Origin: Pantoea piersonii
Lineage (GTDB): Bacteria; Pseudomonadota; Gammaproteobacteria; Enterobacterales; Enterobacteriaceae
Length of the DNA stretch: 64,000 bases
Reading direction: 5' to 3'
Assembly: GCF_003612015.1 (NCBI RefSeq)
Contig: NZ_RARB01000001.1
Span: forward strand, 1 to 64,000
This document shows, in pieces, positions 7,863-23,135 of this stretch. The notes under the pieces are model-generated. The model was not told where the DNA came from. It did no database searches and saw only the letters and a program-made list of their open reading frames with translations. The position numbers and the translations under genes are program-made. The first letter of the stretch is position 1. Each line of letters opens with the position of its first letter.

Positions 7863-9359
7863 TTACTCTTTCTGCATTGCGATACCGCCGGCGAAAGGCT
7901 TCACCGCGCCCGCTTCACGCTCGTTGCGCGCCAGATAGCGATAGCATCCGCCGCCCAGCGCCGCGCCGATAAACCAGCTAAAGCTGGCGACCTCATGCAA
8001 CGCTGGCACAAAGCTAATGATGAGGCCGATGCCGACCGACGGCAGCAGCGCAGCGATCGCTTTCGGGTTAAAGCCGCCGCGATACCAGTAGCGGCCCTGC
8101 GGCGTCGCATCGAAGAGGTCGTCGACAGAGACGCGGCTGCGTTTAATCAGATAGAAATCCGCCAGCAGAATGCCAAACAGCGGCCCGATAAAGGCGCCCA
8201 GAACGTCGAGGGTATAGTGGATCAGCTCCGGCGACTGGAACAGGTTCCACGGCGTCAGCAGCACGGAGCCGACCGCGGCGATCATGCCGCCGGTGCGGAA
8301 ACTGATTTTCTGCGGCGAGCAGTTAGAGAAATCGAATGCGGGCGACACGAAGTTCGCTACGATATTGATGCCGATAGTCGCGGCGATCATGGTCAGCAGG
8401 CCGATAGCCACCGCCACATCGTTGCCAACCATGCTGACGGTCTCAATCGGATCGGTGATCATTTTGCCGAACAGTGACTGGGTGCCAGAGACGATAACCA
8501 CCGTCACCACGGAGAAGAGTAAAAAGTTAAAGGGCAGGCCCCAGCGGTTGCCGCGGCGAATTTCGCCCATGTTTTTGCCGTAGCGCGCGAAGTCGCCAAA
8601 ATTAAGCAGCGGCCCGGAAAAGTAGGAGACGACCAGCGCGGTGGCGGTAATCATCTGCCAGCCCTGTTCGCCTGCGCTCAGCGACTTGCTCGACAGCGTA
8701 AAAGAGATACCGTCAAAGCCGATCTTGTATACAATCCAGCCCGCCAGCGCCACCATCACCACATAGACGGCAGGGCCTGCCACATCAATAAAGCGCTTAA
8801 TAGCGTTCATGCCGTGCCAGAACACCATCGCCTGTAAAAGCCACATCACGCTGAAGCAGCACCAGCCGAGCAGCGACAGGCCCAGCCAGCTGGCGTGGGT
8901 CATGGACGCCAGCGTAGGAAAGAATTTCAGCAGTACCAGCATCAGCGCATTGGCCGCCAGCCAGGTCTGAATACCGTACCAGGCGAAAGCGATCAGTCCG
9001 CGGATCACCGCCGGTATATTCGCACCGAAAACGCCAAACGCCTGACGACAGATAACCGCATAGGGCACGCCCGCCATCTGGCTCGGCTTCGCCACCAGAT
9101 TCGCGCACAGCTGCACGATGCAGATCCCCGCCAGCAGGCAAATCAGCACCTGCCAGCTCGCCAGACCAAGCGTAAAAAAGCTGGCGGCGACAACATAGCC
9201 GCCCATGCTGTGCACATCCGACATCCAGAAAGAGAAGATGTTGTACCACGTCCAGCTCTGATGGCGCGTCGGCGCCAGATCCTCGTTGGTGAGGCGTGGA
9301 CTGTAGCGCGCGTGGGCATCAGCAGCCGACGCAGAAGAATTTTTTCGAGAGTTTGGCAT
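7863..9359 (-). CDS. hpxC: NCS1-family nucleobase:cation symporter, probable allantoin permease
   Basis: A 498-aa inner-membrane carrier with about 12 hydrophobic segments. It shows NCS1 traits: the early helix-1 region FSFWMSDVHSMGGYVVAASFF, and GVPYAVICRQAFGVFGANIPAVIRGLIAFAWYG (substrate-site region) in the next part. The family imports purines, hydantoins or allantoin. It is divergent from the GntR-allantoin racemase-allantoinase operon, the same partnership as hpxC with hpxSAB in Klebsiella, so allantoin is the likely substrate. Other hydantoins cannot be excluded. Confidence 0.82.
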   Translation of the reverse strand: MPNSRKNSSASAADAHARYSPRLTNEDLAPTRHQSWTWYNIFSFWMSDVHSMGGYVVAASFFTLGLASWQVLICLLAGICIVQLCANLVAKPSQMAGVPYAVICRQAFGVFGANIPAVIRGLIAFAWYGIQTWLAANALMLVLLKFFPTLASMTHASWLGLSLLGWCCFSVMWLLQAMVFWHGMNAIKRFIDVAGPAVYVVMVALAGWIVYKIGFDGISFTLSSKSLSAGEQGWQMITATALVVSYFSGPLLNFGDFARYGKNMGEIRRGNRWGLPFNFLLFSVVTVVIVSGTQSLFGKMITDPIETVSMVGNDVAVAIGLLTMIAATIGINIVANFVSPAFDFSNCSPQKISFRTGGMIAAVGSVLLTPWNLFQSPELIHYTLDVLGAFIGPLFGILLADFYLIKRSRVSVDDLFDATPQGRYWYRGGFNPKAIAALLPSVGIGLIISFVPALHEVASFSWFIGAALGGGCYRYLARNEREAGAVKPFAGGIAMQKE

Positions 9360-9427: not shown

Positions 9428-9439
9428 ACAATTGAAATC

Positions 9440-9470
9440 TTGTATACAAAAAAATCTCTTCGCGTATACG
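9440..9470. promoter_or_regulatory. Candidate GntR (HpxS) operator pair
   Basis: A perfect palindrome TTGTATACAA (9440-9449) and a second CGTATACG (9463-9470) share the core GTATAC, with centres 22 bases (about two helical turns) apart. They lie between the divergent permease and GntR genes. GntR proteins of the FadR group commonly bind short palindromes of this type, so binding by the adjacent regulator is the simplest reading. Confidence 0.6.
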
Positions 9471-9503
9471 ATAAGCGCACGCAGCCTTTCAAGGGAGCCG
9501 GAT

Positions 9504-10226
9504 ATGAAAAGTGAAAGAGGCCAGACGCTGGCCGTCGATCGCGGGGATAAAGACGAATCTATCTTTCAGGCGTTGATGAACGCCATTGTGGAGCATCAGC
9601 TGCCGCCAGGCAGCAAACTGCCGGAGGAGGCGCTGGCAGAGGTATTCGGCGTCAGCCGCACCGGCATTCGTAAGGTGCTGCAGCGCCTCGCCGCAGTGCA
9701 GATGGTGACGCTATTGCCCAGGCGCGGTGCACAGGTGGCCACGCCCGGCGTTGACGAAGCGCGCGATATCTTCCGCACTCGCGCGCTGATCGAATGCGGC
9801 AATCTGCCCGCGGTGCTGGCGCATCTGCAACCGCCGCATCTGGCGGGACTAACGCAGCGCATCGCGCAGGAGCAGCAGGCGCATGAGGCTCGCGACGGCG
9901 CGGCGGCTATCCGCCTCTCGGCCGCCTTTCATATTGAACTGCAGGCTATTGCGGGCAACCAGGTGCTGACCGAACTGGTGACGCGCCTGACGCAGCGCTC
10001 TTCGCTGGTGATTGCCGCCTGGGGCGCGCCCTGGCAACAGGGCTGCCGTTGTGACGATCACGATCGCCTGATCGCCCATCTGCGCGCTGGCAATCTTGCC
10101 GCGCTGACCGAGGCGCTGCAGCAGCACTTCGATCATATCGTCTCCAGCCTGCATTTTGAGCGCAGCGGCGAGACGCTGCCCGATTTCTCACGGTTATTTG
10201 CCGGTCATAAAGAGGTGACATCATGA
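9504..10226 (+). CDS. hpxS: GntR-family transcriptional regulator of allantoin genes
   Basis: A 240-aa regulator with an N-terminal winged helix-turn-helix (about residues 20-85; LPEEALAEVFGVSRTGIRKVLQRLAA) and a C-terminal FCD-type ligand domain (RDIFRTRALIECG...FHIELQAIAGNQVL). I chose the ATG at 9504 because gggag precedes it at proper spacing; an in-frame ATG at 9432 would run through the operator region. The stop overlaps the racemase ATG (ATGA). In Klebsiella the equivalent HpxS is described as the repressor of the racemase/allantoinase operon. Confidence 0.85.
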   Translation: MKSERGQTLAVDRGDKDESIFQALMNAIVEHQLPPGSKLPEEALAEVFGVSRTGIRKVLQRLAAVQMVTLLPRRGAQVATPGVDEARDIFRTRALIECGNLPAVLAHLQPPHLAGLTQRIAQEQQAHEARDGAAAIRLSAAFHIELQAIAGNQVLTELVTRLTQRSSLVIAAWGAPWQQGCRCDDHDRLIAHLRAGNLAALTEALQQHFDHIVSSLHFERSGETLPDFSRLFAGHKEVTS

Positions 10227-10954
10227 GCCTGATCCAGGTGATCAATCCTAATACCAGCCTCGCGATGACGGAAACTATCGGCGCGGCGGCGCGCGCGGTG
10301 GCAGCGCCAGGCACTGAAATTATCGCGGTCTCGCCGTCGCAGGGCGTGCCCTCGATTGAAGGCCATTTCGACGAAGCTATCGCGGCGATCGGCGTGCTGG
10401 AGCAGGTAAAGCGCGGCAAAGCGCAGGGCGTCAGCGGCCATGTTATCGCCTGCTTTGGCGATCCCGGCCTGCTGGCGGCGCGCGAGCTGGCCAGCGGGCC
10501 GGTAATCGGCATCGCCGAGGCGGCAATGCACACCGCGACGCTGGTAGCGACGCGCTTTTCCATTGTCACCACGCTGCCGCGTACGCTGACGATTGCGCGC
10601 CATTTGCTGCAGCAGTACGGCTTCACCCATCACTGCGCCGCGCTGCACGCGATCGATCTGCCGGTGCTGGCGCTGGAGGATGGTTCGGGCATTGCGCAGG
10701 AAAAGGTGCGCCAGCGCTGCCTTCAGGCGAAGCAGCAGGATGGCTGCGGCGCGATTGTTCTGGGCTGCGGTGGCATGGCGACGCTGGCGCGCGACCTGAC
10801 GCAGGAGCTGGGTATGCCGGTTATCGACGGCGTCAGCGCGGCGGTGAAAATGGTTGAGGCGCTGGTGGCGCTTGGCTTTGGCACCAGCAAGCATGGCGAT
10901 CTCGACTGGCCGATAGCTAAACCTCTCTCTGGCGCGTTTCAGCATCTAAACTAA
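10223..10954 (+). CDS. hpxA: Allantoin racemase (Asp/Glu/hydantoin racemase family)
   Basis: A 243-aa cofactor-free racemase that interconverts R- and S-allantoin so that a stereospecific allantoinase can use both. The two catalytic cysteines expected in the family are visible as C77 (IACFGDPG) and C182 (VLGCGGMA). The N-terminal INPNTS motif binds the substrate. It is translationally coupled to the GntR gene (4-base overlap) and followed by allantoinase, which fixes its role better than sequence alone. Confidence 0.88.
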   Translation: MSLIQVINPNTSLAMTETIGAAARAVAAPGTEIIAVSPSQGVPSIEGHFDEAIAAIGVLEQVKRGKAQGVSGHVIACFGDPGLLAARELASGPVIGIAEAAMHTATLVATRFSIVTTLPRTLTIARHLLQQYGFTHHCAALHAIDLPVLALEDGSGIAQEKVRQRCLQAKQQDGCGAIVLGCGGMATLARDLTQELGMPVIDGVSAAVKMVEALVALGFGTSKHGDLDWPIAKPLSGAFQHLN

Positions 10955-10988: not shown

Positions 10989-11945
10989 ATGGATAGTTCA
11001 GCCAAAAAAGAGTACAGCTTTAACAAAAACTATCCGCGCGATCTGATCGGCTACGGTGCCACGCCGCCGCATGCCGCCTGGCCGAACAAGGCGCGCGTGG
11101 CGGTACAGTTCGTGCTCAACTATGAAGAGGGCGCAGAGAACAACGTGCTGCACGGCGATGCCGGATCCGAGCAGTTTCTCTCCGACATTATTGGCGCGGC
11201 CAGCTATCCCGACCGCCATATGTCGATGGATTCGCTCTACGAATATGGTTCGCGCGCCGGCTTCTGGCGTATCCACCGCGAATTCCAGAAGCGCGGTTTG
11301 CCGCTGACGGTGTTCGGCGTTGCGATGGCGCTGGCGCGTCATCCAGAGATCGTCGACGCGATCAAACAGGCCGACTATGACGTGGTAAGCCATGGCTGGC
11401 GCTGGATCCACTACCAGGCGATGGACGCCAAAACCGAGCGTCAGCATATGCAGCAGGCGGTAGACGTGCTTACTGACCTGTTCGGTAAAGCGCCGACCGG
11501 CTGGTACACCGGGCGTGACAGCCCCAACACGCGGCGGCTGGTGGTCGAGCAGGGCGGCTTTAGCTACGACAGCGACTATTACGGCGACGATCTGCCGTTT
11601 TGGACGCAGGTCACCTGTCAGGACGGCACTGTGAAGCCGCATCTGATTATCCCCTACACGCTGGAGTGCAACGATATGCGCTTCGCCACGCCGCAGGGCT
11701 TCAATACCGCCGAGCAGTTCTTTACCTACCTGCGCGACACCTTTGACGTTTTGTATGAAGAGGGCGAAACCCAGCCGAAGATGATGTCGGTCGGCATGCA
11801 CTGTCGTCTGCTGGGGCGGCCAGGGAAATTCAAAGCGCTGCAAAACTTCCTCGACCATATCCAGCAGTACAGCGACGTCTGGATCTGTACGCGCCAGCAG
11901 ATCGCCGATCACTGGGCCGCGACCCATCCGGCGCCGCAGCCCTGA
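10989..11945 (+). CDS. hpxB: Allantoinase, PuuE (polysaccharide-deacetylase fold) type
   Basis: A 318-aa enzyme opening the hydantoin ring of allantoin to allantoate. It belongs to the NodB/polysaccharide deacetylase superfamily, not the classical metal amidohydrolase family of AllB. Conserved segments are RDLIGYGATPPHAAWP near the N-terminus, EYGSRAGFWRIHREF, the VVSHGWRWIHYQ motif and a C-terminal SVGMHCRLLGRPGKF. The start at 10989 follows aggaactg; an overlapping ATG at 10985 is in another frame and meets a stop at once. Confidence 0.9.
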   Translation: MDSSAKKEYSFNKNYPRDLIGYGATPPHAAWPNKARVAVQFVLNYEEGAENNVLHGDAGSEQFLSDIIGAASYPDRHMSMDSLYEYGSRAGFWRIHREFQKRGLPLTVFGVAMALARHPEIVDAIKQADYDVVSHGWRWIHYQAMDAKTERQHMQQAVDVLTDLFGKAPTGWYTGRDSPNTRRLVVEQGGFSYDSDYYGDDLPFWTQVTCQDGTVKPHLIIPYTLECNDMRFATPQGFNTAEQFFTYLRDTFDVLYEEGETQPKMMSVGMHCRLLGRPGKFKALQNFLDHIQQYSDVWICTRQQIADHWAATHPAPQP

Positions 11946-11952
11946 AAAAATA

Positions 11953-11980
11953 AGGCGCGGCTGCTCAGACAGCCGCGCCT
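11953..11980. terminator. Strong hairpin after hpxB
   Basis: An 11-bp GC-rich stem (aggcgcggctg/cagccgcgcct) with a 6-base loop, 8 bases past the stop. There is no T run on the plus strand, while the minus strand has one (ttatttttt). It probably ends or protects the hpxSAB transcript. Confidence 0.55.
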
Positions 11981-12258
11981 GCCTGCTGCCGTTAAAAAAC
12001 TGTAACTGGCTATTTAGCAGGAAATTTAATGCTTCCCCTCAACCGTTAGCCTTTTGTGCGCGTCATAAAACGCCTTATTCCGCGTTTCATTAACGTTTCC
12101 TAAATGAAATAAAAATATTTGCGCAACAAAATTAATTAACAACGGTTAGGTTCCGCGCCGCTCAGCGGAATGTTACATATTGCCTGCCGCCTGGTTTTCG
12201 CTTTGCGTTTATAGATATTCCGCTGAGATTTTTCATAACGGAATAAGGAATTGTTTTG
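11981..12258 (+). promoter_or_regulatory. Long AT-rich leader upstream of the oxalate decarboxylase gene
   Basis: With the hairpin before it, this makes a 313-base stretch without a gene. It is visibly more AT-rich than its neighbours (for example 12060-12140). It contains an 11-bp perfect inverted repeat, CTCAGCGGAAT (12161-12171) and ATTCCGCTGAG (12217-12227), separated by 45 bases and ending about 30 bases before the start codon. This could be an operator pair or a folded 5' leader. An aagga ribosome-binding site is at 12245-12249. Confidence 0.5.
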
Positions 12259-13470
12259 ATGAGCAAACTTTCCAGAAGGAACTTTATGGCGTTCGCCGCA
12301 GGCGGAACGGTGGCGCTGGCGGCAGGACAGGTGCACGCCCACGATAGCATCGCCTCCTGGCCCGCCGGCACGCCGCGCGATCCCGGCCCGCACGATCCAG
12401 CGAGAGAAGCGCAAAATCCCGATATCGTCGACCCGCCCGCCACCGACAGCGGTACGCTGCCCAACCTGCGCTTCTCTTTTAGCGACGCGCACGTTCGCAA
12501 AGGCAGCGGCGGATGGACGCGACAGGTGACGCAGCGCGAGCTGGGTATCTCCACCACCATCGCGGGCGTCGATATGCGGCTTAACGCAGGCGGCATCCGC
12601 GAACTGCACTGGCATAAAGAGGGCGAGTGGGCTTATATGACCTTCGGCCAGGCGCGGGTTACCGCTTTTGATACTGAAGGCGGCTGGTTTGTCGATGATA
12701 TCGGCGTCGGCGATCTCTGGTATTTTCCGCCGGGCATACCCCATTCGATTCAGGGACTGGGACCAGACGGCTGCGAATTTCTGCTGGCTTTTGACGATGG
12801 CAGCTTTGATGAGGACAGCACCTTTCTGTTATCGGACTGGTTCAAACATATTCCGCCCGATATCCTGGCGAAAAACTTCAGCGTGCCGGTCTCAACCTTT
12901 GCAAAGCTACCTTCGCCGGATGACGAATATATCTTTGCTGGCAAGGTGCCGGGCAGCCTGGCCTCGGACGCGATTCAGGGCGCGCCGAAATCCAAAAAAG
13001 TCTTCACGCATCATATGCTGGCGCAGAAGCCGATAACCGCCCCGGGCGGCACGGTGAGAATTACCGACTCCTCTAACTTTCCGGTATCAAAAACCATTGC
13101 GGCCGCGCTGGTGGAGATTGCGCCGGGCGGTATGCGCGAACTGCACTGGCATCCCAATAACGATGAGTGGCAATACTATCTGGAGGGAGAGGGGCGCATG
13201 GGCGTTTTCGCCTCATCCGGTCAGGCGAGAACCTTCGACTACCGGGCGGGCGACGTCGGTTACGTGCCTTTCGCCATGGGCCACTATATTGAGAATACCG
13301 GCAAAGGGCCGCTGCGGTTTCTGGAGCTGTTCAAGAGCGACTACTATGCCGATATTTCGCTTAACCAGTGGCTCGCCAGCACGCCGCGCGAGCTGGTGGC
13401 GCAGCACCTGCAGCTTGATGACGCGTTTTTGTCAGCGCTCTCGCTGCAAAAGAATCCGGTAATCAAATAA
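12259..13470 (+). CDS. oxdC: Bicupin oxalate decarboxylase, Tat-exported
   Basis: A 403-aa bicupin of the OxdC family (oxalate to formate + CO2, Mn-dependent). The N-terminus carries a twin-arginine signal (SRRNFM at 5-10, hydrophobic run, then QVHAHD), so the enzyme should be exported folded. Both metal sites are complete: H117, H119, E123, H162 and H296, H298, E303, H342, with the spacings of Bacillus OxdC. The active-site lid reads DEDST (184-188) where OxdC has SENST; the key lid Glu is kept (E185), which favours decarboxylase over oxidase. A TTG directly precedes the chosen ATG. It stands alone in an allantoin cluster whose end product is oxalate. Confidence 0.88.
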
Positions 13471-13474
13471 CCGC

Positions 13475-13499
13475 CAGGGCTGGTGCTACGCCAGCCCTG
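13475..13499 (+). terminator. Hairpin after oxdC
   Basis: A 9-bp stem (cagggctgg/ccagccctg) with a 7-base loop directly after the stop codon. There is no clear T run, so it may be a weak terminator or a 3'-end stabiliser. Confidence 0.45.
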
Positions 13500-13610
13500 C
13501 GTAGTTGTCTGAATCCTGAAGTACCTGCAAAACCCGTGGTTGTTACGGTTAAAGCAATCAGCGACAATGGCCGTTTCCATAATTTTTTCTGATGAGTGAG
13601 CGTCGTGAAC

Positions 13611-14339
13611 ATGACTGAACCGCGTCAGGCGAAGTGGAGAGGCACGTTGCGCACTTTTCTTGCCCGCTTCTGGCCGCATCCGCTGCCGGTGGCAAAAAAA
13701 CAAATTGTTATCGCCAGTATCGGCGCCGGCCTTGGCCTGACCATCACCAGCCTGATCAGCCACTGGCTACTGGGACAGGTCAATTTATGGTTTGTCGCGC
13801 CGATGGGGGCTTCCGCCGTGCTGCTGTTCGGCATCCCCAACAGCCCGCTGGCGCAGCCCTGGTCCATTGTCGGCGGCAATATGGTGGCGGGTGCGATTGG
13901 CGTGACCGCCGCCATAACTATTCCTTATGCTCCGCTGGCCTGCGGCATCGCCGCCTGCCTGGCCATTGCGGTGATGTTTCAGCTGCGCTGCCTGCATCCG
14001 CCCAGCGGTGCGGTGGCGCTGACCGCCATTCTCGGCGGCGGCAACGTACATCAGCTGGGCTACCACTATATTCTGACGCCCGTGCTGCTTAACTCCCTCT
14101 GTCTGGCGCTGCTGGCGATTATCTTCAACAACCTGGCGGGCCGTCGCTATCCGCATCCGCTGGCCTCAACCGAGGCGAAGCCCGAACCGGTCGCAATCGA
14201 TGTACCGATTACGCGTGACGATCTGCACCAGGCGCTGGAAAGCGGCCAGCTGCTGGATATTGATGAAGACGATCTCCAGCAGCTGTTGCAGCGCGCCGAG
14301 GCGATTGCGGTTCAGCGGCAGGCGCAGCGCGCCCGTTAA
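13611..14339 (+). CDS. HPP-family integral membrane protein
   Basis: A 242-aa protein with about four or five hydrophobic helices and the family signature CLHPPSGAVALTAI (the HPP motif) near residue 125. A charged C-terminal tail of about 60 residues includes ITRDDLHQALESGQLLDIDEDDLQQLL. Molecular function in bacteria is not established; a plant homologue has been linked to nitrite transport. I chose the ATG at 13611; GTG codons at 13596 and 13605 are alternatives. It follows oxdC by 140 bases, so it may belong to oxalate/formate handling, but that is only positional. Confidence 0.8.
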   Translation: MTEPRQAKWRGTLRTFLARFWPHPLPVAKKQIVIASIGAGLGLTITSLISHWLLGQVNLWFVAPMGASAVLLFGIPNSPLAQPWSIVGGNMVAGAIGVTAAITIPYAPLACGIAACLAIAVMFQLRCLHPPSGAVALTAILGGGNVHQLGYHYILTPVLLNSLCLALLAIIFNNLAGRRYPHPLASTEAKPEPVAIDVPITRDDLHQALESGQLLDIDEDDLQQLLQRAEAIAVQRQAQRAR

Positions 14340-14341
14340 TC

Positions 14342-14731
14342 TCAGCTTTCGCTCATCAAACTGACCTGTGCGGCGACGATACGCCAGCCGTCCGGCAGCC
14401 GGACCCAGCTCTGCTGCTGGCGGCCAGTTTTAGTTGTGCCTTCGCGCGTGAACTCGGTGCTGCAAACCGCATACTCTTCACCGAAGGTGGTAATGACGCT
14501 GTTACGCAGGGTGCGCGCCAGTCCGGCGGCGGGACGCTGGGCGCGAAAGGCCCGGATCTGCTCGATGCCGTAGAGGTTCTCGCCCGCGCCGAGCCGTACG
14601 GTACGCTCATCGTGCCAGAAGAGGGCGTCCAGCGTATCGATATCATTGCTCACCAGCGCCTGCTCGTAGCGGTGAAAAGCGGCCGTTACCTCCGCCACGA
14701 CGTGCGGCAAATTAATCTCTTCAGTTCTCAT
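14342..14731 (-). CDS. hpxZ: HpxZ/AtzH-like protein (DUF3225, SnoaL-like fold)
   Basis: A 129-aa NTF2/SnoaL-like protein (VVAEVTAAFHRYEQALVSNDIDTLDALFW, then GRQQQSWVRLPDGWRIVAAQVS). In Klebsiella hpxZ is the last gene of hpxWXYZ, and the AtzH homologue accompanies amidases of the AtzE type. Its own activity in purine breakdown is unproven. The start at 14731 (MRTEEINLP) overlaps the end of the amidase gene by 11 bases; a longer reading would run deep into that gene. Confidence 0.82.
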   Translation of the reverse strand: MRTEEINLPHVVAEVTAAFHRYEQALVSNDIDTLDALFWHDERTVRLGAGENLYGIEQIRAFRAQRPAAGLARTLRNSVITTFGEEYAVCSTEFTREGTTKTGRQQQSWVRLPDGWRIVAAQVSLMSES

Positions 14732-16118
14732 TTCGTTTATCCAGACAGGCTGGCGCCAGGGTAATGCCCTGCTGCTCAAGCGCAAAGGTGACGCGCAGCG
14801 CGGCGGTTTCATTAAAGGGGGCCGCAATCAGCTGTAGTCCGATCGGCAGGCCGCTTTTCGTCGCCAGCGGCACGCTGCACACCGGCAACCCCAGGAAGGA
14901 GATCGGCTGCGTCAGCATGCCCATGCTGGCGCGCGCGGGCAGATCGACGCCGTTAATGCGAATGCTTTCCTGACCGATCGGCGGCGCGACGCAGGGCGTG
15001 GCGGGCGCGATCAGCACATCGAAGCGCTCGAACAGCGGCAGAACCTGCTGCTGGAAATGGCGGCGGAAGCGCTGCGCCTGCACATACCAGGCGGCGGGCA
15101 ACATCGCGCCCGCCAGCAGCCGCTCGCGCGAAGCGGGTTCGAAACGCTCCGGCGAGGCGCGCAGCGCGGGCAGATAGAGATTGCCGCCTTCGCAGGCGGT
15201 CAGGATAAAGGCCGCGGAACGCGCCAGCTCCGCTTCCGGCAGCGTCACCTCATCGCTGATATCCAGCGCCTGAGCGGCCCGCGCCAGCGCGTCGCGCGCG
15301 TCGTCGTCGCACCAGGCAGAGAAAAAGCCGCCCAGCAGCGCGCAGCGCTGACCGCGCACTTCCAGTCCGACCAGCGTCGGATCGGCAGGCCGGTCCGCCT
15401 GGAAGGCGTCATCGGCGTCGCGGCCCTGCAATATGTCATACACCAGCGCCAGATCTTCGACGCGGCGTGCGAAGGGGCCGATATGATCAAGGCTGCCGAC
15501 AAACGGATGACTGCCGCTGCGCGACAGGCGGCCAAAGGTCGGCTTCAGGCCGAAGATGCCGCACAGTGACGCAGGCACGCGAATTGACCCGTTGGTGTCA
15601 GTGCCGAGGGAGAAGTGCGCCAGCCCGGCCGCCACCGCCGCAGCGGAGCCGCCCGACGATCCACCCGCCACGCGCGTCAGGTCATGGGGATTGCGCGTCG
15701 CGCCGAAGTGGGTGTTCTCAGTGGTAAACCCATAGGCGTAGGCATCCATATTCAGCATGCCGGAGAGCAACGCCCCGGCGCGGCTGAGACGCCTGATCGC
15801 CCAGGCGTCCTGCGTCGCCGCAGGACGATCCTGAAACAAGGCGGCGCCCGCCAGCGTGGTATGTCCCGCCACGTCGAACAGATTCTTCACCGCATAAGGA
15901 ATGCCCGCCAGCGGCGGCAGGTTCTCGCCGCGCCGCCGCTGCGCATCGATCGCGTCAGCCTCGCGCAGCATGCGTTCGGCCGTAACGTCGGTCCAGGCGT
16001 TAATTGCCCGGTGGCGCTCAATGCCTTGCAGCGTCTGCTGCGCCACCTCGCGCGCGCTGAGATCGCCGCGCTGGATCGCCTGCTGCAGCGCCTGGAGAGA
16101 AAATTCGCTGAGGTTCAT
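14721..16118 (-). CDS. hpxY: AtzE-type amidase (HpxY)
   Basis: A 465-aa amidase-signature enzyme. The Ser-cisSer-Lys triad is visible: K78 (YAVKNLFD), S154 in GGSSGGS and nucleophile S178 in TNGSIRVPAS, with the usual 24-residue serine spacing. The closest group is AtzE/HpxY, which works with a small AtzG-like subunit. In purine catabolism it is thought to act around the oxalurate/oxamate steps, but the exact substrate is unsettled. It overlaps hpxX by ATGA and hpxZ by 11 bases, so the complex is probably made stoichiometrically. Confidence 0.85.
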   Translation of the reverse strand: MNLSEFSLQALQQAIQRGDLSAREVAQQTLQGIERHRAINAWTDVTAERMLREADAIDAQRRRGENLPPLAGIPYAVKNLFDVAGHTTLAGAALFQDRPAATQDAWAIRRLSRAGALLSGMLNMDAYAYGFTTENTHFGATRNPHDLTRVAGGSSGGSAAAVAAGLAHFSLGTDTNGSIRVPASLCGIFGLKPTFGRLSRSGSHPFVGSLDHIGPFARRVEDLALVYDILQGRDADDAFQADRPADPTLVGLEVRGQRCALLGGFFSAWCDDDARDALARAAQALDISDEVTLPEAELARSAAFILTACEGGNLYLPALRASPERFEPASRERLLAGAMLPAAWYVQAQRFRRHFQQQVLPLFERFDVLIAPATPCVAPPIGQESIRINGVDLPARASMGMLTQPISFLGLPVCSVPLATKSGLPIGLQLIAAPFNETAALRVTFALEQQGITLAPACLDKRNEN

Positions 16119-16300
16119 GGATGAAATACTCCCGCCACTTCCAGCCTCTCATCGAGAGGAAACGCCATCAGCGGCGCTGCCAGCGCGGCGATGCGTTCCA
16201 GCTGAATAACCAGCTCGGCGCGGCGCACGTCGTCCAGCTCCAGCGCCAGCAATTGCTCCATCTGCGCCAGATAGCGCGCCCAGTCTGTTGTCTGATTCAT
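16115..16300 (-). CDS. hpxX: AtzG-like small amidase subunit (HpxX, DUF4089)
   Basis: A 61-aa helical protein, MNQTTDWARYLAQMEQLLAL onward, with the family-type ending LAAPLMAFPLDERLEVAGVFHP. AtzG is the GatC-like partner that stabilises the AtzE amidase, and the same role is likely here. The reading frame is open further upstream into hpxW, but the ATG at 16300 gives the family length. The gene lies 13 bases after hpxW and overlaps hpxY by 4 bases. Confidence 0.85.
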   Translation of the reverse strand: MNQTTDWARYLAQMEQLLALELDDVRRAELVIQLERIAALAAPLMAFPLDERLEVAGVFHP

Positions 16301-16313
16301 TGTGTTTCTCCTG

Positions 16314-17900
16314 TCAGAATCCGCTTGCGCTGCCGTTGCTGCGCGGATCGCATGCGCCTTCCAGCATGCCGTTGATATGGCGCACGATAGCGCCCGCGTG
16401 ACCGACCGCCTCGCTGAAATCGGGCAGCAGCTCCACTTCATGCCCCAGCTGGCGCAGCCTGGCGACCGTCTCCGGCGCGAAGCGGCCTTCCAGCTTGAGC
16501 GAGTCAGATGCGTTGCCCCAGGTGCGCCCCAGCAACCAGCGCGGCGCGCTTACCGCCTGCTGCAGCGGCATGCCCTGAATCACATGTCGGGTAAAGATCG
16601 CCGCCTGGGTTTGCGGCTGTCCGTCGCCGCCCATTGAGCCGTAGACCAGCGTGCGGCCATCTTTCAGGCGCGCGGCGGCGGGATTAAGGGTGTGAAACGG
16701 CTGCTTGCCCGGCGCCAGCGCCAGCAGATGATCCGGATCGAGGCTAAAGGCGGCGCCGCGGTTCTGCCAGGTGATGCCGGTGCCGGGGATCACCACGCCG
16801 CTGCCGAACTCGTGATAGATGCTCTGAATAAAGGAGACGGCGAGGCCGCTGCTGTCCATCACGCCCATCCATACCGTGTCGCCTGGGCCACGTCCGGTTC
16901 CCCAGGGGGCGGCCTGCGCCTCGTCAATCTGGCTCGCCAGGGTGGCGAAATGATCCAGCGTTAACAGCGACTGCGCTTCGCACCTCATATGGCGCGGGTC
17001 GGTAATATGGCGATCGCGCAGGGCAAACGCTTTTTTCGTCGCTTCCACAATGCGGTGCACCGTCTGCGCTTCATCAGCCTGCGCCATCGCAAGATGATCG
17101 GTAATGCCGAGGATCGCCAGCGAGACCAGGCCCTGAGTCGGCGGCACCATATTCCACAGATCGCCTTCGCTGTGCGCCACGTGCAGCGGAACGCAGCGAC
17201 GTGCGCGCTGCTGCTGCAAATCCGCCAGCGTCACCGGCATGCCGAGCGCCGACATCTCTCGCGCCAGGTGGCGCGCCAGCTCGCCGCGATAGAAGCTGTC
17301 GAGGCCTTGGTCGCTCAGCAGGCTGAGCGTCTGCGCCAGCGCCGGCTGGGTAAAGCGGCTGCCCTGGCGCGGCGGCTCGCCGTCCGGCATAAAGGTGGCG
17401 GTAAACCCCGGCTGATGTGCAAGTTCGTGCCGTTTGGCGGCGGTGGCGGCCGCCTGCGACGCGGTGACCGGAATGCCGTCGGCGGCATAGCGGATGGCGT
17501 CGCGCAGCAGGCGCGGCAGGGGCAGCGAGGCGCCGCCCAGCTCGCGAGAGAGCGCCAGCGCCTCCTGCCAGCCGCTCACCGTCCCGGCTACCGTTAAGGC
17601 TGCTTTCGGACCGCGATGCGGGATCGTGCCTTCGCCATGGTAGAAGTGGGGATGCGCCAGCGAACCCGCCGCGCCGCTGGCGTCGATAGCCACCGGCTCG
17701 CCGTTGGGCGGCAGCACCAGCCAGAAGCCGTCGCCGCCGAGGCCGTTCATATGGGGATAAACCACTGCGATGGTGGCAGCCGCGGCGACCATCGCCTCAA
17801 GGGCGTTGCCGCCGTCGCGTAGTACCGCCAGCGCGCTCTCGCTCGCCAGGTGATGTGGCGCGACCGCCATGCCCAGCGGAGCCATATTGCTCTGAATCAT
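16314..17900 (-). CDS. hpxW: Oxamate amidohydrolase, gamma-glutamyltransferase-like (HpxW)
   Basis: A 528-aa N-terminal nucleophile hydrolase of the gamma-glutamyltranspeptidase family. The expected autocleavage/catalytic Thr is T342 in PGDTVWMGVMD, followed by the GSGVVIPGTGITWQNRG and YGSMGGDGQPQ segments. There is no signal peptide, unlike periplasmic Ggt, which agrees with a cytoplasmic catabolic role. Klebsiella HpxW has been characterised as oxamate amidohydrolase, releasing oxalate and ammonia. The start at 17900 (MIQSNMAPLG) was preferred over an upstream in-frame start in the shared promoter region. It is first in the operon hpxWXYZ, divergent from hpxU. Confidence 0.85.
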   Translation of the reverse strand: MIQSNMAPLGMAVAPHHLASESALAVLRDGGNALEAMVAAAATIAVVYPHMNGLGGDGFWLVLPPNGEPVAIDASGAAGSLAHPHFYHGEGTIPHRGPKAALTVAGTVSGWQEALALSRELGGASLPLPRLLRDAIRYAADGIPVTASQAAATAAKRHELAHQPGFTATFMPDGEPPRQGSRFTQPALAQTLSLLSDQGLDSFYRGELARHLAREMSALGMPVTLADLQQQRARRCVPLHVAHSEGDLWNMVPPTQGLVSLAILGITDHLAMAQADEAQTVHRIVEATKKAFALRDRHITDPRHMRCEAQSLLTLDHFATLASQIDEAQAAPWGTGRGPGDTVWMGVMDSSGLAVSFIQSIYHEFGSGVVIPGTGITWQNRGAAFSLDPDHLLALAPGKQPFHTLNPAAARLKDGRTLVYGSMGGDGQPQTQAAIFTRHVIQGMPLQQAVSAPRWLLGRTWGNASDSLKLEGRFAPETVARLRQLGHEVELLPDFSEAVGHAGAIVRHINGMLEGACDPRSNGSASGF

Positions 17901-17938
17901 ATTTACGCTTCTTATCGGGTGACAGAGCGAGGATCCAA

Positions 17939-17952
17939 GCAAGAGCCGTTCC
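17939..17952 (-). promoter_or_regulatory. Candidate sigma-54 promoter of hpxWXYZ
   Basis: Read on the minus strand: TGGAAC-ggctc-TTGCTT, with GG and GC exactly 10 bases apart. It differs from the TGGCAC-N5-TTGCW consensus at one position of the -24 box. Predicted transcription would start near 17927, about 27 bases before the hpxW ATG. Confidence 0.6.
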
Positions 17953-18034
17953 AGTTTTTGCGGTCGCGCACGACAGCGGTAACCTGGATCGAATTATGCT
18001 AGCTTCTGCTGAAACGAAAGTTACAGGACGACGC

Positions 18035-18874
18035 ATGAAACAGCTCGATGAACGACTCAGAAGCCACTATCCGCAGCTCTCGCCCCAGGAGCAGCGTATT
18101 GCGGATTTCGTCTTTGACCATTTCGACGATTTGATCAGCTACAACAGCGCCGAGCTGGCGCGGCTCAGCGGCGTGTCGAAAGCCACTGTCAGCCGCCTGT
18201 TCCGACGGCTGGGCTATGACAAATATAAAGATATGCGCGACGAACTGCGTATTCTGCGGCAGAGCGGTATGCCCTTGACCGACAACCGCGACGCGGTGCA
18301 GGGCAATACGCTGCTGGCGCGCCACTATAAGCAGGAGATGGCGAACCTGACGCAGTGGGTGAACGCGCTTGACGCGCAGCAGTTTGGCGAGGCGGTGCAG
18401 CAGATGACGCAGGCGAAACGTATTTTCGTTATCGGGATGCGTAACTCCTGGCCGCTGGCGCTGCACCTGCGCCAGCAGCTGCTGCAGGCCCGTTCCAGCG
18501 TCGCCGTACTGCCGCAGCCGGGCCAGACGCTGGCGGAAGAGGTGGTGGATATTACCGCCGACGATATGGTGATCGTTATGGCGTTTCGCCGTCGTCCGCG
18601 CCTGATCCGCCCGCTGATACAGCAGCTGCAGCAGCGTGATATTCCGCTGCTGGTGCTGTGCGAGCCGCAGGCGCAGTCGATGGCGGGCCTGGCGAGCTGG
18701 CAGCTCTGCGCGCCGCTCGACAGCGTATCCGCCTTCGACAGCTACGCTTCGGCGATGAGCCTGATCAATTTACTGACCAATGCGCTACTGCATGAAATGC
18801 TGTCGCAAGGTCGCCAGCGCATCCACCAGATCGCCGATCTCTACCTGCAGCTGGATGAGCTGGAGCACCGTTAA
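18035..18874 (+). CDS. hpxU: RpiR-family regulator (HpxU-like)
   Basis: A 279-aa regulator with an N-terminal RpiR helix-turn-helix (residues about 1-78; YNSAELARLSGVSKATVSRLFRRLGYDKYKDM) and a C-terminal SIS domain (about 115-250; RIFVIGMRNSWPLALHLRQQLL). SIS domains bind phosphosugar-like or other anionic ligands. In Klebsiella the RpiR protein HpxU represses the allantoate operon and lies between it and hpxWXYZ, exactly as here. The start at 18035 follows aggacg; upstream in-frame codons fall inside hpxW. A tatgct -10 box is at 17995-18000. Confidence 0.85.
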   Translation: MKQLDERLRSHYPQLSPQEQRIADFVFDHFDDLISYNSAELARLSGVSKATVSRLFRRLGYDKYKDMRDELRILRQSGMPLTDNRDAVQGNTLLARHYKQEMANLTQWVNALDAQQFGEAVQQMTQAKRIFVIGMRNSWPLALHLRQQLLQARSSVAVLPQPGQTLAEEVVDITADDMVIVMAFRRRPRLIRPLIQQLQQRDIPLLVLCEPQAQSMAGLASWQLCAPLDSVSAFDSYASAMSLINLLTNALLHEMLSQGRQRIHQIADLYLQLDELEHR

Positions 18875-19005: not shown

Positions 19006-19055
19006 ATAACAATTACAAGAATCTTTTGTTTCAGGTCAACTTACCGGGGTGCATA

Positions 19056-19841
19056 ATGAAAAAAGTATTAATGGCGGTAGCGGCGGCAGCGTTATTCGTG
19101 ATCCAGACCGGCAGCGCGCTGGCGGATCAGTTACAGGATATCGAGAAGCGCGGCGTGCTGCGCGTGGCGGTGCCGCAGGATTTCCCGCCGTTCGGATCGG
19201 TGGGCACCGATCTGCAGCCGCAAGGCTATGATATCGACACCGCGCGCTATCTGGCGAAACAGATGAAACTTAAGTTGCAGCTGGTACCGGTCACCAGCGC
19301 CAACCGCGTGCCCTATCTGCAAACCGACAAGGTCGATCTGGTGATCTCCAGCATGGGTAAAAACCCTGAGCGGGAGAAGGTAATCGATTTCAGCCGTGCC
19401 TATGCGCCCTTTTTCCTTGGCGTCTTTGGGCCAAAAGGCGAGGCGCTGAAAGACGCGGCGGCGCTCAGCGGCAAGAGTATTGGGGTCACGCGCGGCGCGG
19501 TAGAGGATATGGTGCTGAGCAGTCTTGCGCCGAAAGAGGCGCAGGTGAAGCGCTACGAGGACAACAACACCACGCTTTCGGCTTACCTCTCTGGACAGGT
19601 GCAGTACGTCGCGACCGGCAACCTGGTGATCGCGGCGATCGCGCGGCAGAATCCGCAAAAAGCGCCGGTAGCGCAGTTTATGCTGAAAGATTCGCCCTGC
19701 TTTATCGGCCTGAAGAAGGGGGAGCCGGCTCTGAAGGCGAAGGTCGACGCGCTGATTGAGCAGGGCATCAAAGACGGCACGCTCAACAAGCTGTCGGAAG
19801 AGTGGCTGAAAGCGCCGCTGCCCGCCAGCCTCGGCGCATAA
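19056..19841 (+). CDS. hpxF: ABC transporter periplasmic binding protein (polar amino acid/opine type)
   Basis: A 261-aa precursor with a Sec signal peptide (MKKVLMAVAAAALFV...GSALA, cleaved near 23). The SBP_bac_3 fold follows (IEKRGVLRVAVPQDFPPFG, GYDIDTARYLAKQM, ISSMGKNPEREKVIDFS). It should deliver a small polar ligand to the permease encoded next. Its place in an allantoate operon suggests allantoate, ureido acids or related purine products, but family members mostly bind amino acids. The start at 19056 is set by the signal peptide. Confidence 0.85.
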   Translation: MKKVLMAVAAAALFVIQTGSALADQLQDIEKRGVLRVAVPQDFPPFGSVGTDLQPQGYDIDTARYLAKQMKLKLQLVPVTSANRVPYLQTDKVDLVISSMGKNPEREKVIDFSRAYAPFFLGVFGPKGEALKDAAALSGKSIGVTRGAVEDMVLSSLAPKEAQVKRYEDNNTTLSAYLSGQVQYVATGNLVIAAIARQNPQKAPVAQFMLKDSPCFIGLKKGEPALKAKVDALIEQGIKDGTLNKLSEEWLKAPLPASLGA

Positions 19842-19847
19842 GGGCGC

Positions 19848-20516
19848 ATGATGCTCGGGCAACTTAACTTCCCTGCGCTCTGGCCCTACTGGCCAGAGTT
19901 GCTTGCCGGGCTGTGGGTCACCCTTCAGCTGACGGTGCTGGCCACCGTGGGCGGCGTCGGGCTGGGGATCCTTGGCGCGGCGCTGCGCAGCGGTAAAGCG
20001 AGCTGGGCCAGCCGTCTCTGGGGCCTCTATGTGGAGATCATCCGCAACACCCCGTTCGTGGTGCAGCTCTTCTTTATTGTTTTCGGTCTGCCTAATCTGG
20101 GACTGAAGCTGACGGCGGGCGAGGCGGCGCTGCTGGCGATGCTGATTAACCTCGGCGCCTACAGCACCGAGATTATCCGCGCCGGGATTCAGGTGACGCC
20201 GAAAGGGCAGTGGGAAGCGGGACGCGTGCTGGGCCTGACGCGCGCGCAGACCTTTTTGCGCGTGGTGCTGCCGCCGTCGCTGCAGCGCATCTATCCGGCG
20301 CTGGTAAGCCAGTGCATTATCGTGATGCTCGGTTCGTCGGTGGTGTCGCAGGTCTCTTATGAAGAGCTGACCTTCGCCGCCAACCTGATCCAGTCGCGCA
20401 CCTTTTTAAGCTTCGAGGTCTATCTGGTGACCACGCTGATCTATCTGCTGTTATCGATCGCCATGCGGCAGGTGCTGCTGGCGCTGGGGCGTAAATGGTT
20501 TGGAGCGCAGCGATGA
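19848..20516 (+). CDS. hpxG: ABC transporter permease (His/Glu/opine type), first
   Basis: A 222-aa inner-membrane permease with about five hydrophobic helices and the EAA loop EAGRVLGLTRAQTFLRVVLPPSLQRIYPAL that contacts the ATPase. An N-terminal LAGLWVTLQLTVLATVGGVGLG segment and IIRNTPFVVQLFF are typical of HisM/GltK-type permeases. It starts 6 bases after the binding-protein gene, and its stop overlaps the second permease. Two adjacent ATGs (19848, 19851) make the exact start uncertain. Confidence 0.85.
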   Translation: MMLGQLNFPALWPYWPELLAGLWVTLQLTVLATVGGVGLGILGAALRSGKASWASRLWGLYVEIIRNTPFVVQLFFIVFGLPNLGLKLTAGEAALLAMLINLGAYSTEIIRAGIQVTPKGQWEAGRVLGLTRAQTFLRVVLPPSLQRIYPALVSQCIIVMLGSSVVSQVSYEELTFAANLIQSRTFLSFEVYLVTTLIYLLLSIAMRQVLLALGRKWFGAQR

Positions 20517-21172
20517 TGACGACCTTTACCGACTGGGACATTCTGCGCAATCTGCTGCTGGCGGCGCGCTGGACGCTGCTGCTCTCGCTGACCGCCTTTG
20601 TCGGCGGCACGCTGGTGACGCTGCCGTTGCTCCTGCTGCGCCTGCTGCAGCGGAAATGGCTGACGCGGCTCATCCGCGCCTATACCGAGCTGTTCCAGGG
20701 CACGCCGCTGCTGATGCAGCTCTTTCTCGCCTTTTTCGGCGTCGGGCTGTTTGGCATCGACGTCGCGCCCTGGACCGCGGCCTCGCTCGCTCTGACCTTT
20801 TATACCAGCGCTTTTCTGCTCGATATCTGGTTCGGCAGCATCCACGCGCTGCCGAAAGGGCAGTGGGAAGCGTCGCGCTGCCTCGGCCTCAGCTTCGGCC
20901 AGACTCTGTGGCGGGTTATCGCGCCGCAGGCGCTGCGCATCGCCATCGCGCCGACGGTGGGCTTCGCCGTACAGGTGATCAAGGGCACCGCGCTCGCCTC
21001 AATTATCGGCTTTATCGAACTGACGAAAGCCGGAACCATTCTTAACAACGTGACCCTGCAGCCGTTCAAGGTGTTTGGGCTGGTCGCGCTGGGCTACTTT
21101 TTGATGTGCTACCCGCTGTCCCGCTACAGCCAGTATCTGGAGAAAAAATTCCATGCCGCTCATCACCATTAA
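20513..21172 (+). CDS. hpxH: ABC transporter permease (His/Glu/opine type), second
   Basis: A 219-aa partner of the preceding permease, with the same layout: about five helices, TELFQGTPLLMQLFL and the EAA loop EASRCLGLSFGQTLWRVIAPQALRIAIAP. The two should form the heterodimeric channel. The ATG at 20513 overlaps the upstream stop (ATGATGA), and the 3' end overlaps the ATPase gene by 20 bases, signs of translational coupling. Confidence 0.85.
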   Translation: MMTTFTDWDILRNLLLAARWTLLLSLTAFVGGTLVTLPLLLLRLLQRKWLTRLIRAYTELFQGTPLLMQLFLAFFGVGLFGIDVAPWTAASLALTFYTSAFLLDIWFGSIHALPKGQWEASRCLGLSFGQTLWRVIAPQALRIAIAPTVGFAVQVIKGTALASIIGFIELTKAGTILNNVTLQPFKVFGLVALGYFLMCYPLSRYSQYLEKKFHAAHHH

Positions 21173-21884
21173 TCAGGTGCAGAAGTACTACGGCGATAAT
21201 CACGTGCTGAAAGGCGTCGATCTCGATATCGAAATGGGTGAAGTGATCTCCATCATCGGCCGCAGCGGCTCAGGCAAAAGCACGCTGCTGCGCTGTATGA
21301 ACGGTCTGGAGGGCTATCAGGAGGGCAGCATCAAGCTGGGCGGCATGACGATTACCGATCGCGATAGCCAGGCGCGCGACATCAGCCGTTCGGTCGGCAT
21401 GGTGTTTCAGAACTTCAATCTCTTTCCCCATATGACCGCGCTGGAAAACGTGATGCTGGCGCCGCGCCGGGTGCTGAAGAAAGGCGAGGCGGCGTGCCGC
21501 GCGCTGGCGACGCAGATGCTGGAGAAAGTCGGCCTCGGCGAGCGCCTCGATTACTACCCGGCGAACCTCTCTGGCGGCCAGCAGCAGCGCGTCGCCATCG
21601 CCCGCGCGCTGGCAATGAACCCGAAGGTGCTGCTGTGCGACGAGATCACCTCGGCGCTCGATCCTGAGCTGGTGGGCGAGGTGCTGAAAGTGCTGGAGCA
21701 GCTCGCCGCCGAAGGAATGACGCTGATCCTGGTCACCCATGAGATGAATTTCGCGCGCGACGTCGGCGATCGCGTGGTCTTTATGCATCAGGGGCGCGTC
21801 TGGGAGCAGGGCAGCAGCAAAACCCTGTTCGCCGCGCCGCAGACGCCGGAGCTGAAGCAGTTTATCTCCTCGGTGCGACTCTAA
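21153..21884 (+). CDS. hpxI: ABC transporter ATP-binding protein (polar amino acid type)
   Basis: A 243-aa ATPase with Walker A GRSGSGKST (about 37-45), Q-loop VFQNFNLFPHMTALENV, signature LSGGQQQRVAIARALAM, Walker B VLLCDEITSALDP and H-loop VTHEM. The GlnQ/HisP type agrees with the two permeases and the binding protein upstream. The 20-base overlap with the permease gene suggests coupled translation. Confidence 0.88.
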   Translation: MPLITINQVQKYYGDNHVLKGVDLDIEMGEVISIIGRSGSGKSTLLRCMNGLEGYQEGSIKLGGMTITDRDSQARDISRSVGMVFQNFNLFPHMTALENVMLAPRRVLKKGEAACRALATQMLEKVGLGERLDYYPANLSGGQQQRVAIARALAMNPKVLLCDEITSALDPELVGEVLKVLEQLAAEGMTLILVTHEMNFARDVGDRVVFMHQGRVWEQGSSKTLFAAPQTPELKQFISSVRL

Positions 21885-21902: not shown

Positions 21903-23135
21903 ATGGAAAACCGCTACCCGCAAATTAATCCGCCGCAGCGTCTGCTGATGGGGCCTGGCCCGATCAACGCCGATCCGCGCGTGCTGCGCGCCATGTCGAC
22001 TCAGCTGATCGGCCAGTACGATCCGGCGATGACGCACTATATGAACGAGGTGATGGCGCTCTATCGCGGCGTCTTCCGTACGGAAAACCGCTGGACGCTG
22101 CTGATTGACGGTACCTCACGCGCCGGGATCGAGGCGATCCTGCTGTCGGCGATCCGGCCTGGCGATCGGGTGCTGGTGCCGGTATTTGGCCGCTTCGGCC
22201 ATCTGCTGTGCGAGATCGCCCGCCGCTGCCGCGCCGAGGTGCACACCATTGAGGTGCCCTGGGGGGAAGTCTTTACGCCGGATCGGATCGAAGATGCTAT
22301 TAAGTGCGTTAAGCCACGCCTGCTGCTGACGGTACAGGGCGATACCTCGACCACCATGCTGCAACCGCTGGCGGAGCTGGGCGCGATCTGCAAAAAGTAT
22401 GGCGTACTCTTCTATACCGATGCCACCGCGTCGCTCGGCGGCAACGCGCTGGAGACCGACGCCTGGGGGCTGGATGCGGTATCGGCAGGCATGCAGAAGT
22501 GCCTCGGCGGCCCGTCCGGCACCTCGCCCATCACCTTAAGCCCGCAGATGGAAGAGGCTATCCGCAGGCGTAAATGCGTTGAGGAGGGGATCCGTACCGC
22601 CGAGCATCAGGATGGCGATGAGGAGATGATCTACTCGAACTATTTCGATCTCGGCATGATCATGGATTACTGGGGGCCGGAGCGGCTTAACCACCATACC
22701 GAGGCGACCACCGCGCTGTTCGGCGCGCGGGAGTGCGCCCGTCTTATTCTGCAGGAAGGGCTGGACGCAGGCATTGCGCGCCACAAGCTGCACGGCGACG
22801 CGCTGCTGAAGGGCATTCAGGGCATGGGGCTGGAGACCTTCGGCGATCTGAAGCACAAGATGAACAACGTGCTCGGCGTGGTGATCCCGCAGGGCGTCAA
22901 CGGCGACCAGGTGCGCAAGCTGATGCTGGAAGATTTCGGCATTGAGATCGGCACCTCGTTTGGCCCGCTGCACGGCAAGGTATGGCGCATCGGCACCATG
23001 GGCTATAACGCGCGGAAAGATTGCGTCATGACCACGCTGGCGGCGCTGGAAGCAGTGCTGACGCACGTCGGCTTCCGCGCGACGCAGGGCGCGGCGATGC
23101 AGGCGGCCTGGGATCACTACGGGAGCGGCGCATGA
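21903..23135 (+). CDS. hpxJ: Ureidoglycine-glyoxylate aminotransferase (PucG/HpxJ type)
   Basis: A 410-aa class V, fold type I PLP enzyme. The PLP lysine is K199 in VSAGMQKCLGGPSGTSPI, and the aspartate pairing with the PLP ring nitrogen is in LFYTDATASLGG. The family member PucG transaminates the unstable ureidoglycine with glyoxylate, giving oxalurate and glycine, which matches the adjacent allantoate amidohydrolase. Generic alanine-glyoxylate transaminase would be the alternative. It starts 18 bases after the ATPase gene behind an aaggaa site. Confidence 0.86.
   Translation: MENRYPQINPPQRLLMGPGPINADPRVLRAMSTQLIGQYDPAMTHYMNEVMALYRGVFRTENRWTLLIDGTSRAGIEAILLSAIRPGDRVLVPVFGRFGHLLCEIARRCRAEVHTIEVPWGEVFTPDRIEDAIKCVKPRLLLTVQGDTSTTMLQPLAELGAICKKYGVLFYTDATASLGGNALETDAWGLDAVSAGMQKCLGGPSGTSPITLSPQMEEAIRRRKCVEEGIRTAEHQDGDEEMIYSNYFDLGMIMDYWGPERLNHHTEATTALFGARECARLILQEGLDAGIARHKLHGDALLKGIQGMGLETFGDLKHKMNNVLGVVIPQGVNGDQVRKLMLEDFGIEIGTSFGPLHGKVWRIGTMGYNARKDCVMTTLAALEAVLTHVGFRATQGAAMQAAWDHYGSGA

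Follow-up and report, generated by a model that had tools for sequence, protein, structure and literature searches.

A twin-arginine-signal oxalate decarboxylase gene in an allantoin locus of Pantoea piersonii and its joint retention with hpxW in reduced symbiont genomes

What would an oxalate decarboxylase with an export signal do in the middle of an allantoin degradation locus, and where would its oxalate come from? The window analyzed here, a stretch of 64,000 nucleotides from Pantoea piersonii, raises this question: its oxdC gene sits between hpxSAB, located upstream on the same strand, and the convergent hpxZ, -Y, -X, and -W, and a gene for an HPP transmembrane protein lies directly downstream of oxdC. 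The substrate could be oxalate released inside the cell by HpxW or oxalate met outside it. We read the gene product as a Tat-exported oxalate decarboxylase that would dispose of oxalate, including the oxalate made by HpxW, and we put the probability of this reading at about 0.6.

The oxdC gene and the surrounding hpx locus

The oxdC gene (12259..13470, forward strand) starts with ATG, and its translated open reading frame (ORF) extends over 403 aa with zero internal stops. The original prediction described a complete OxdC-type bicupin between hpxSAB and hpxZYXW; the gene order was confirmed, and the protein scores 548.1 bits against the oxalate decarboxylase bicupin model TIGR03404 (cut-off, 254.2 bits), covering profile positions 6 to 367 of 367. 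Two stretches of OxdC match Pfam Cupin_1, and its nearest PDB structures are the oxalate decarboxylases 5vg3 and 1j58 (E ~1e-142).

Alignment to solved OxdC chains placed a first metal-site motif at residues 114 to 124 (12598..12630, forward strand) and a second at residues 293 to 304 (13135..13170, forward strand). The RELHWH motif occurs twice and the later His of each site is present, so both Mn sites appear intact, as predicted. In the alignment to 5vg3 and in the columns of a 52-row alignment of OxdC proteins, the His/His/Glu/His metal ligands of OxdC were found in each of the two cupin domains. The active-site lid reads DEDST (residues 184 to 188; 12808..12822, forward strand), compared with SENST in 5vg3, and Glu185 aligns with the catalytic lid Glu of OxdC. 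The 5vg3 alignment thus agrees with the prediction of a DEDST lid that keeps its Glu, though this lid is usual in the OxdC set: 50 of the 52 rows have FDEDSTF or FDEESTF, which rules out DEDST as a special lid. The metal-ligand positions and the lid Glu are conserved in 52/52 rows, including those from genomes of 0.48 to 0.9 Mb. OxdC would catalyze the Mn-dependent conversion of oxalate into formate and CO2.

We estimated selection on oxdC by the NG86 method, in which certain dS values were near saturation. The dN/dS ratio was 0.05 to 0.06 in two septica-clade pairs and 0.13 to 0.24 in six pairs from tiny genomes, with finite dS in 8 of 9 pairs (the septica/Nezara pair gave none), and the dN of oxdC was below that of hpxW in all six pairs computed for both. 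Judged by these ratios (0.05 to 0.24 in 8/9 pairs), oxdC is under purifying selection.

The twin-arginine signal that had been predicted was recovered by the Tat-signal model TIGR01409 (score, 21.4; cut-off, 16.7). Within the signal peptide (27 aa; 12259..12339, forward strand), the RR motif precedes a hydrophobic segment and a predicted cleavage site, placed after VHA from sequence only, and the RR motif is retained in the symbiont OxdC homologues that we read. The window genome also encodes TatC (PF00902; G000:C2:12467-13099), adjoined by tatA and tatB ORFs recognized by sequence and position. OxdC would be exported through Tat.

We then looked into the genes around oxdC. Before it lie an NCS1-family, allantoin-permease-like gene (7863..9359, reverse strand; the models that it matched were all below cut-off), an hpxS-like GntR/FCD regulator gene named from its position (9432..10226, forward strand), an hpxA-like racemase gene (10223..10954, forward strand; 422 bits to the putative hydantoin racemase 3qvj and 158 bits to the allantoin racemase 5lfd), and hpxB, encoding a PuuE-type allantoinase (10989..11945, forward strand; TIGR03212 over cut-off). 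The HPP gene (13596..14339, forward strand; PF04982) is followed on the reverse strand by the AtzH-like hpxZ (14342..14827; NF033625 over cut-off), by hpxY for an AtzE-family amidohydrolase (14721..16118; 480 bits to biuret hydrolase 6c62), by an hpxX-like gene for a small protein, again named from position (16115..16309), and by hpxW for an oxamate-amidohydrolase-like Ntn hydrolase (16314..17942). HpxW matches 5hft with 500 bits for chain A and 357 bits for chain B; its small chain starts at Thr356, and this nucleophile Thr is found at the small-subunit start in 43/43 aligned rows. Beyond hpxW, the cluster extends to position 24388, all on the forward strand, with an RpiR-type regulator gene (17855..18874), an amino-acid-type ABC transporter composed of a binding protein, two permeases, and an ATPase (19026..21884), a ureidoglycine-glyoxylate aminotransferase gene (21903..23135; 859 bits to 3nnk), and an hpxK-like allantoate amidohydrolase gene (23021..24388), the real start of which is probably downstream of 23021.

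The racemase, allantoinase, allantoate amidohydrolase, and ureidoglycine aminotransferase, leading from allantoin to oxalurate, are thus all encoded at the locus. In the passages of PMC5270733 that bear on these enzymes, the aminotransferase can lead to oxalurate, and HpxW converts oxamate into oxalate and ammonium, for which Hicks and Ealick 2016 is cited. The predicted route, for which enzymes are encoded around oxdC as expected, would run from allantoin to allantoate, ureidoglycine, oxalurate (by the aminotransferase), and oxamate, and HpxW would release oxalate and NH3. In these bacteria, the step from oxalurate to oxamate would fit HpxY, which is AtzE-like, and oxalate would be the end product of the HpxW route. 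Regarding transcription, hpxB and oxdC are separated by 313 bp, a scan of positions 11850 to 14400 found no sigma-70-like promoter, and the four terminator-like sites in the same interval (mean, 3.2) are about the number expected by chance. The gap and the missing promoter leave cotranscription of hpxB and oxdC unsupported, which counts against an internal source of the oxalate.

oxdC and hpxW in Pantoea and the family

We searched 61 Pantoea genomes and found an hpxW orthologue with at least 80% identity in 60 of them (the copy of G017 is in two pieces); in G008, the search shows a 37% paralogue only. oxdC was matched in 23/61 genomes, 22 times at 80% identity or more and once at 44% (G047), with the match in two overlapping pieces in G026 and starting only at residue 48 in G012. 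Since 37 of the 60 genomes with hpxW have no oxdC match, the pathway can run without OxdC. A substitute route through oxalyl-CoA decarboxylase (Oxc, TIGR03254), which also disposes of oxalate, was not found in the oxdC-less Pantoea: matches exceeded the cut-off in 0/61 genomes, compared with 1/14 control genomes. Of the purine-to-formate pathway first proposed for this locus, the enzyme, its Tat signal, and the predicted route are supported, and OxdC as a needed step is weakened. On a dependence between oxdC and hpxW, Pantoea is uninformative, hpxW being near-universal there.

Only 7 of the 23 genus oxdC genes are located within an hpx locus: those of the window genome, P. septica (G007), P. 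latae (G009), P. deserta (G029), G027, and two symbionts, of Plautia stali (type B; G014, 2.4 Mb) and Nezara viridula (G051, 1.4 Mb). The other 16 have no hpx gene nearby (~20 kb per locus; 15.9 kb for G026), and many oxdC genes sit on large plasmids, which speaks against an internal source; 42 of the 80 plasmid records matching oxdC are from Pantoea. Among the best 80 of 526 candidate loci, hpx genes flank oxdC in five (L054 to L057 and L092), all from the septica-type clade. We examined the hpx loci of 40 of the 54 other Pantoea genomes and saw oxdC in 0/40; hpxB and hpxZ face each other in 37 of them, hpxB being out of view in 3. With G041 set aside, the hpxB and hpxZ match ends are at most 172 bp apart in 28/36 loci and 331 to 1632 bp apart in 8/36, and oxdC was found between the two genes in 0/36 loci with both in view. 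All seven hpx-linked rows form a single clade in the OxdC tree (support, 100/99), and a FastTree analysis based on five hpx proteins places the Nezara symbiont with the septica clade (support, 1.0). Because the hpx-linked OxdC form one clade and none of the 36 other junctions carries oxdC, a single insertion between the convergent genes hpxB and hpxZ of the otherwise conserved allantoin locus, in the septica-type clade, would explain the arrangement. The position of oxdC beside hpx is clade specific, being confined to the septica clade and the Nezara symbiont. In these gene maps of oxdC and hpx loci, matches covering <30% of the query were omitted.

Two Pantoea genomes weigh against internally made oxalate as the substrate: G041 (2.9 Mb, septica clade), which has kept hpx and lost oxdC, and G037 (2.4 Mb, 74% complete), in which hpxW is present and oxdC absent. 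The HPP protein had been put forward as a candidate oxalate exporter. At the Nezara symbiont locus, HPP was not matched, and what is left of it in the Plautia symbiont is a remnant of 43 residues, yet both loci keep oxdC; the Ishikawaella genome gave no HPP either. HPP is therefore not needed for OxdC, and we dropped it as the exporter.

Several further observations were made on these loci. The eight wider hpxB-hpxZ junctions (L139, L140, L145, L147, L148, L157, L170, and L171) suggest that the site may take repeated insertions. In G041 (L134, C8), HPP (two pieces) and the NCS1 permease match in overlapping pieces only, possibly reflecting ongoing genome erosion. The oxdC frame of P. stewartii (L086) is broken by a stop after 72 codons, and L053 is the locus of the two overlapping oxdC pieces of G026. 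hpxZYXW lacks adjoining hpxSAB within 20 kb in L158 (G002, P. allii), L163 (G011, P. ananatis), and L168 (G012, P. stewartii). A Pantoea-like oxdC (80% identity, two pieces) occurs at CP093281.1 828346-829564, a 952-kb plasmid recorded as "Pseudomonas silvicola." In Roseomonas acroporae (L104), hpxY-like (43%) and hpxW-like (34%) genes lie ~3 kb from oxdC (~3973 to 7803), a possible independent hpx/oxdC pairing outside Enterobacterales, and in Dickeya (L090), an hpxW-like gene lies ~7 kb from oxdC (the hpxW-like matches of L104 and L090 have 34 to 36% identity).

We extended the search to 392 genomes of the family, with cut-offs of E <= 1e-95 for HpxW and E <= 1e-60 for OxdC, which strongly diverged copies could escape. 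The OxdC set was limited to at least 57% identity (29 genomes), excluding 19 of the 48 bicupin-matching genomes; the latter (for example, G125, G134, and G224) carry a divergent bicupin at 43 to 50% identity, and 10 of the 19 have hpxW. The proposed co-occurrence was found: hpxW is present in 128/392 genomes, in 25/29 with OxdC versus 103/363 without (Fisher p 8e-10). Counted by genus, the figures are 12/15 versus 39/139 (p 1e-4), and in large genomes alone, they are 16/18 versus 103/253 (p 8e-5); kinship among the genomes makes all three p values overstate the evidence. Against an internal source, 103 of the 128 hpxW-bearing genomes are without OxdC at this identity, as are the 37 Pantoea genomes above. 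The four genomes with OxdC and no hpxW (G113, G130, G163, and G274), which made up the set searched for allantoinase, all have an hpxB match, in two pieces for G163.

Joint retention and Tat in reduced genomes

The co-occurrence is nearly perfect in reduced genomes. In the family, 121 of the 392 genomes, from 55 genera, are smaller than 2 Mb (rounded sizes). hpxW was found in nine of them, and all nine also have oxdC, compared with 2 of the 112 without hpxW (G130 and G274); by genus, oxdC occurs in 6/6 with hpxW versus 1/49 without. The nine include Ishikawaella, P. carbekii, P. edessiphila, and the Nezara symbiont. The two exceptions are 480-kb genomes with oxdC, TatC, and allantoinase in which hpxW was not found; with their allantoinase match, they are not clean as counterexamples free of purine genes.

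We read the hpx loci of nine tiny genomes, namely P. carbekii, five P. edessiphila/SoEX genomes, G122, Ishikawaella, and G233 (708,439 bp). All nine keep hpxB, hpxW, hpxY, the aminotransferase, and the allantoate amidohydrolase, and eight keep hpxA, which is absent from the G233 stretch; the Nezara symbiont keeps all six. Stops inside these hpx matches are few and fall at residues 6 to 37 of the window proteins, where the starts of the species differ. None of the RpiR regulator, hpxS, the ABC transporter, and HPP was seen in the nine stretches, and in the whole Ishikawaella genome (a chromosome of 745,590 bp, a size also given in a table of PMC7218078, and the plasmid pAst of 9,139 bp), they were not found either, with only unspecific ABC-ATPase matches. 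In P. carbekii, P. edessiphila, strain SoEX, and Ishikawaella, oxdC is located on plasmids of 7 to 18 kb (17,880 bp for P. carbekii G204). On both small plasmids, pBMSBPS3 (L254) and pAst (L255), oxdC is accompanied by genes for RepB and for a methionyl aminopeptidase (map); their remaining genes differ, with thiamine genes on the former and arginine-succinyl genes on the latter.

Intact TatC was found in 11 of the 121 genomes smaller than 2 Mb; G146, with its three broken TatC pieces, is not counted among the 11. Nine of the 11 have oxdC, the other two being G164 (1.2 Mb) and G189 (1.6 Mb), and below 1 Mb, TatC occurs in 7/106 genomes, from three genera, all seven with oxdC. In Ishikawaella, TatA (52 residues) and TatC were matched with 65% and 63% identity, respectively, and a TatB-like frame lies between them. 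We scanned 941 ORFs of at least 60 aa from the whole Ishikawaella genome for RR motifs ahead of a hydrophobic segment. By our judgement, the plasmid OxdC was the only convincing substrate, in a scan that is blind to atypical signals such as KR and has no control genome with known Tat substrates; the other matches were an MFS-like N terminus, internal membrane segments, and short ORFs. This is an unusual case of a protein-export machine kept in very small genomes apparently for one substrate. TatC was not found in P. carbekii (G100 and G204) or in G233, though both keep oxdC with the RR motif; there, OxdC either is cytoplasmic or is exported by another route.

The joint retention of hpxW and oxdC in small stink-bug symbiont genomes suggests that oxdC clears oxalate left from nitrogen recycling. 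It is on these reduced genomes, more than on the septica-type locus, that the pathway idea rests.

Sources of oxalate and known systems

The gene, its family, its catalytic residues, its Tat signal, the gene order, and the joint retention are established in the sequences compared. In the mechanism that we propose, OxdC would fold and then exit via Tat to the periplasm, where it would decarboxylate both HpxW-derived oxalate, which would have left the cytoplasm, and any oxalate met outside the cell. For free-living cells, this disposal would be optional, as oxalate could be excreted; in dense gut symbionts, it would be selected for, since oxalate would otherwise accumulate in the host, which would presumably benefit.

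We lean toward oxalate made inside the cell by HpxW as a main object of OxdC, because hpxW and oxdC are retained jointly; an intracellular origin of oxalate would also make it easier to understand why two lineages keep oxdC without TatC. Other points run the opposite way: a periplasmic enzyme meets cytoplasmic oxalate only once it is outside the cell, P. carbekii and G233 keep an enzyme with an export signal though TatC was not found there, and stink bugs eat plants, so the joint retention may have two causes. For the stink-bug symbionts specifically, we consider it close to an even bet that HpxW-based nitrogen recycling ends in oxalate, that Tat-exported OxdC is the detoxifying last step, that sub-megabase genomes keep Tat essentially for OxdC, and that the septica-type locus builds this step into the hpx cluster.

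It is possible, with a probability that we place clearly below even, that oxalate from external sources (plant tissue, fungi, or host diet) is the main substrate of OxdC, that oxdC came to lie beside hpx by neutral insertion where two genes converge, and that its retention with hpxW in symbionts reflects two separate host services. Support for an outside source comes from G130 and G274, which have oxdC and TatC without hpxW, and from the many oxdC genes that lie away from hpx, the gene being widespread in Pantoea, Erwinia, and others apart from that locus. Export by Tat fits it as well, and PMC5404199, where it treats ode (Nikoh et al. 2011), gives that gene a plant-oxalate role. Against it stands the pattern below 2 Mb, where, host diet disregarded, oxdC is present in 9/9 genomes with hpxW and absent from 110/112 without; two hpxW lineages without TatC retain oxdC with its active-site residues, and G130 and G274 retain allantoinase. 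Internal and outside sources may both hold.

A function in acid tolerance, with oxalate source unimportant, would draw on the protons consumed by decarboxylation, and OxdC of Bacillus subtilis reportedly has an acid-stress role; from this function, one would not expect the link with hpxW, a periplasmic OxdC would probably aid cytoplasmic pH little, and we consider it improbable. Oxalate oxidase activity, with peroxide production, is the least credible alternative, for although the cupin fold family is common to both enzymes and the lid sequence sets the decarboxylase/oxidase balance, the lid Glu aligns with the OxdC lid Glu in 52/52 rows.

Reviews cite the symbiont gene for plant-toxin detoxification; our preferred reading, with HpxW as a source of the oxalate, sets an internal explanation beside that one. 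It raises a testable question: does the oxalate come with the diet, or does the symbiont produce it during host nitrogen recycling? We offer the retained allantoin-to-oxalate genes as a second oxalate source for symbiont oxdC, a connection for which we found no paper in the open-access literature. That literature yielded no paper joining oxalate decarboxylase, allantoin, and a symbiont, and none joining twin-arginine with the stinkbug symbiont Ishikawaella and oxalate; the main text of PMC8032781, on stink-bug symbionts, contains neither of the stems "allanto" and "oxal." Passages of the Benitsuchiphilus paper report urate oxidase and no allantoinase, and the paper does not contain the stem "oxal"; by that account, Benitsuchiphilus is a stink-bug symbiont that lacks the pathway, the enzyme being unmentioned there.

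Among known systems, the window protein shares with Bacillus subtilis OxdC (YvrK; PDB 1j58) the bicupin fold, the two metal sites, and the lid Glu, over residues 44 to 403. Compared with the solved OxdC chains, it adds the Tat signal, the alignment beginning at residue 44. The ode/oxdC product of Ishikawaella capsulata pAst is 58% identical to the window OxdC and has a Tat signal too; PMC5404199 and PMC9319143 explain it as symbiont detoxification of plant oxalate, in passages that mention no link to chromosomal allantoin-to-oxalate genes or to Tat. The Klebsiella hpx cluster (HpxW, PDB 5hft) shares homologues of hpxA, -B, -W, -Y, and -Z, of the aminotransferase (3nnk), and of the allantoate amidohydrolase with the locus described here; no oxalate decarboxylase is mentioned in the passages on that cluster, whereas the septica-type locus has one between hpxB and hpxZ.
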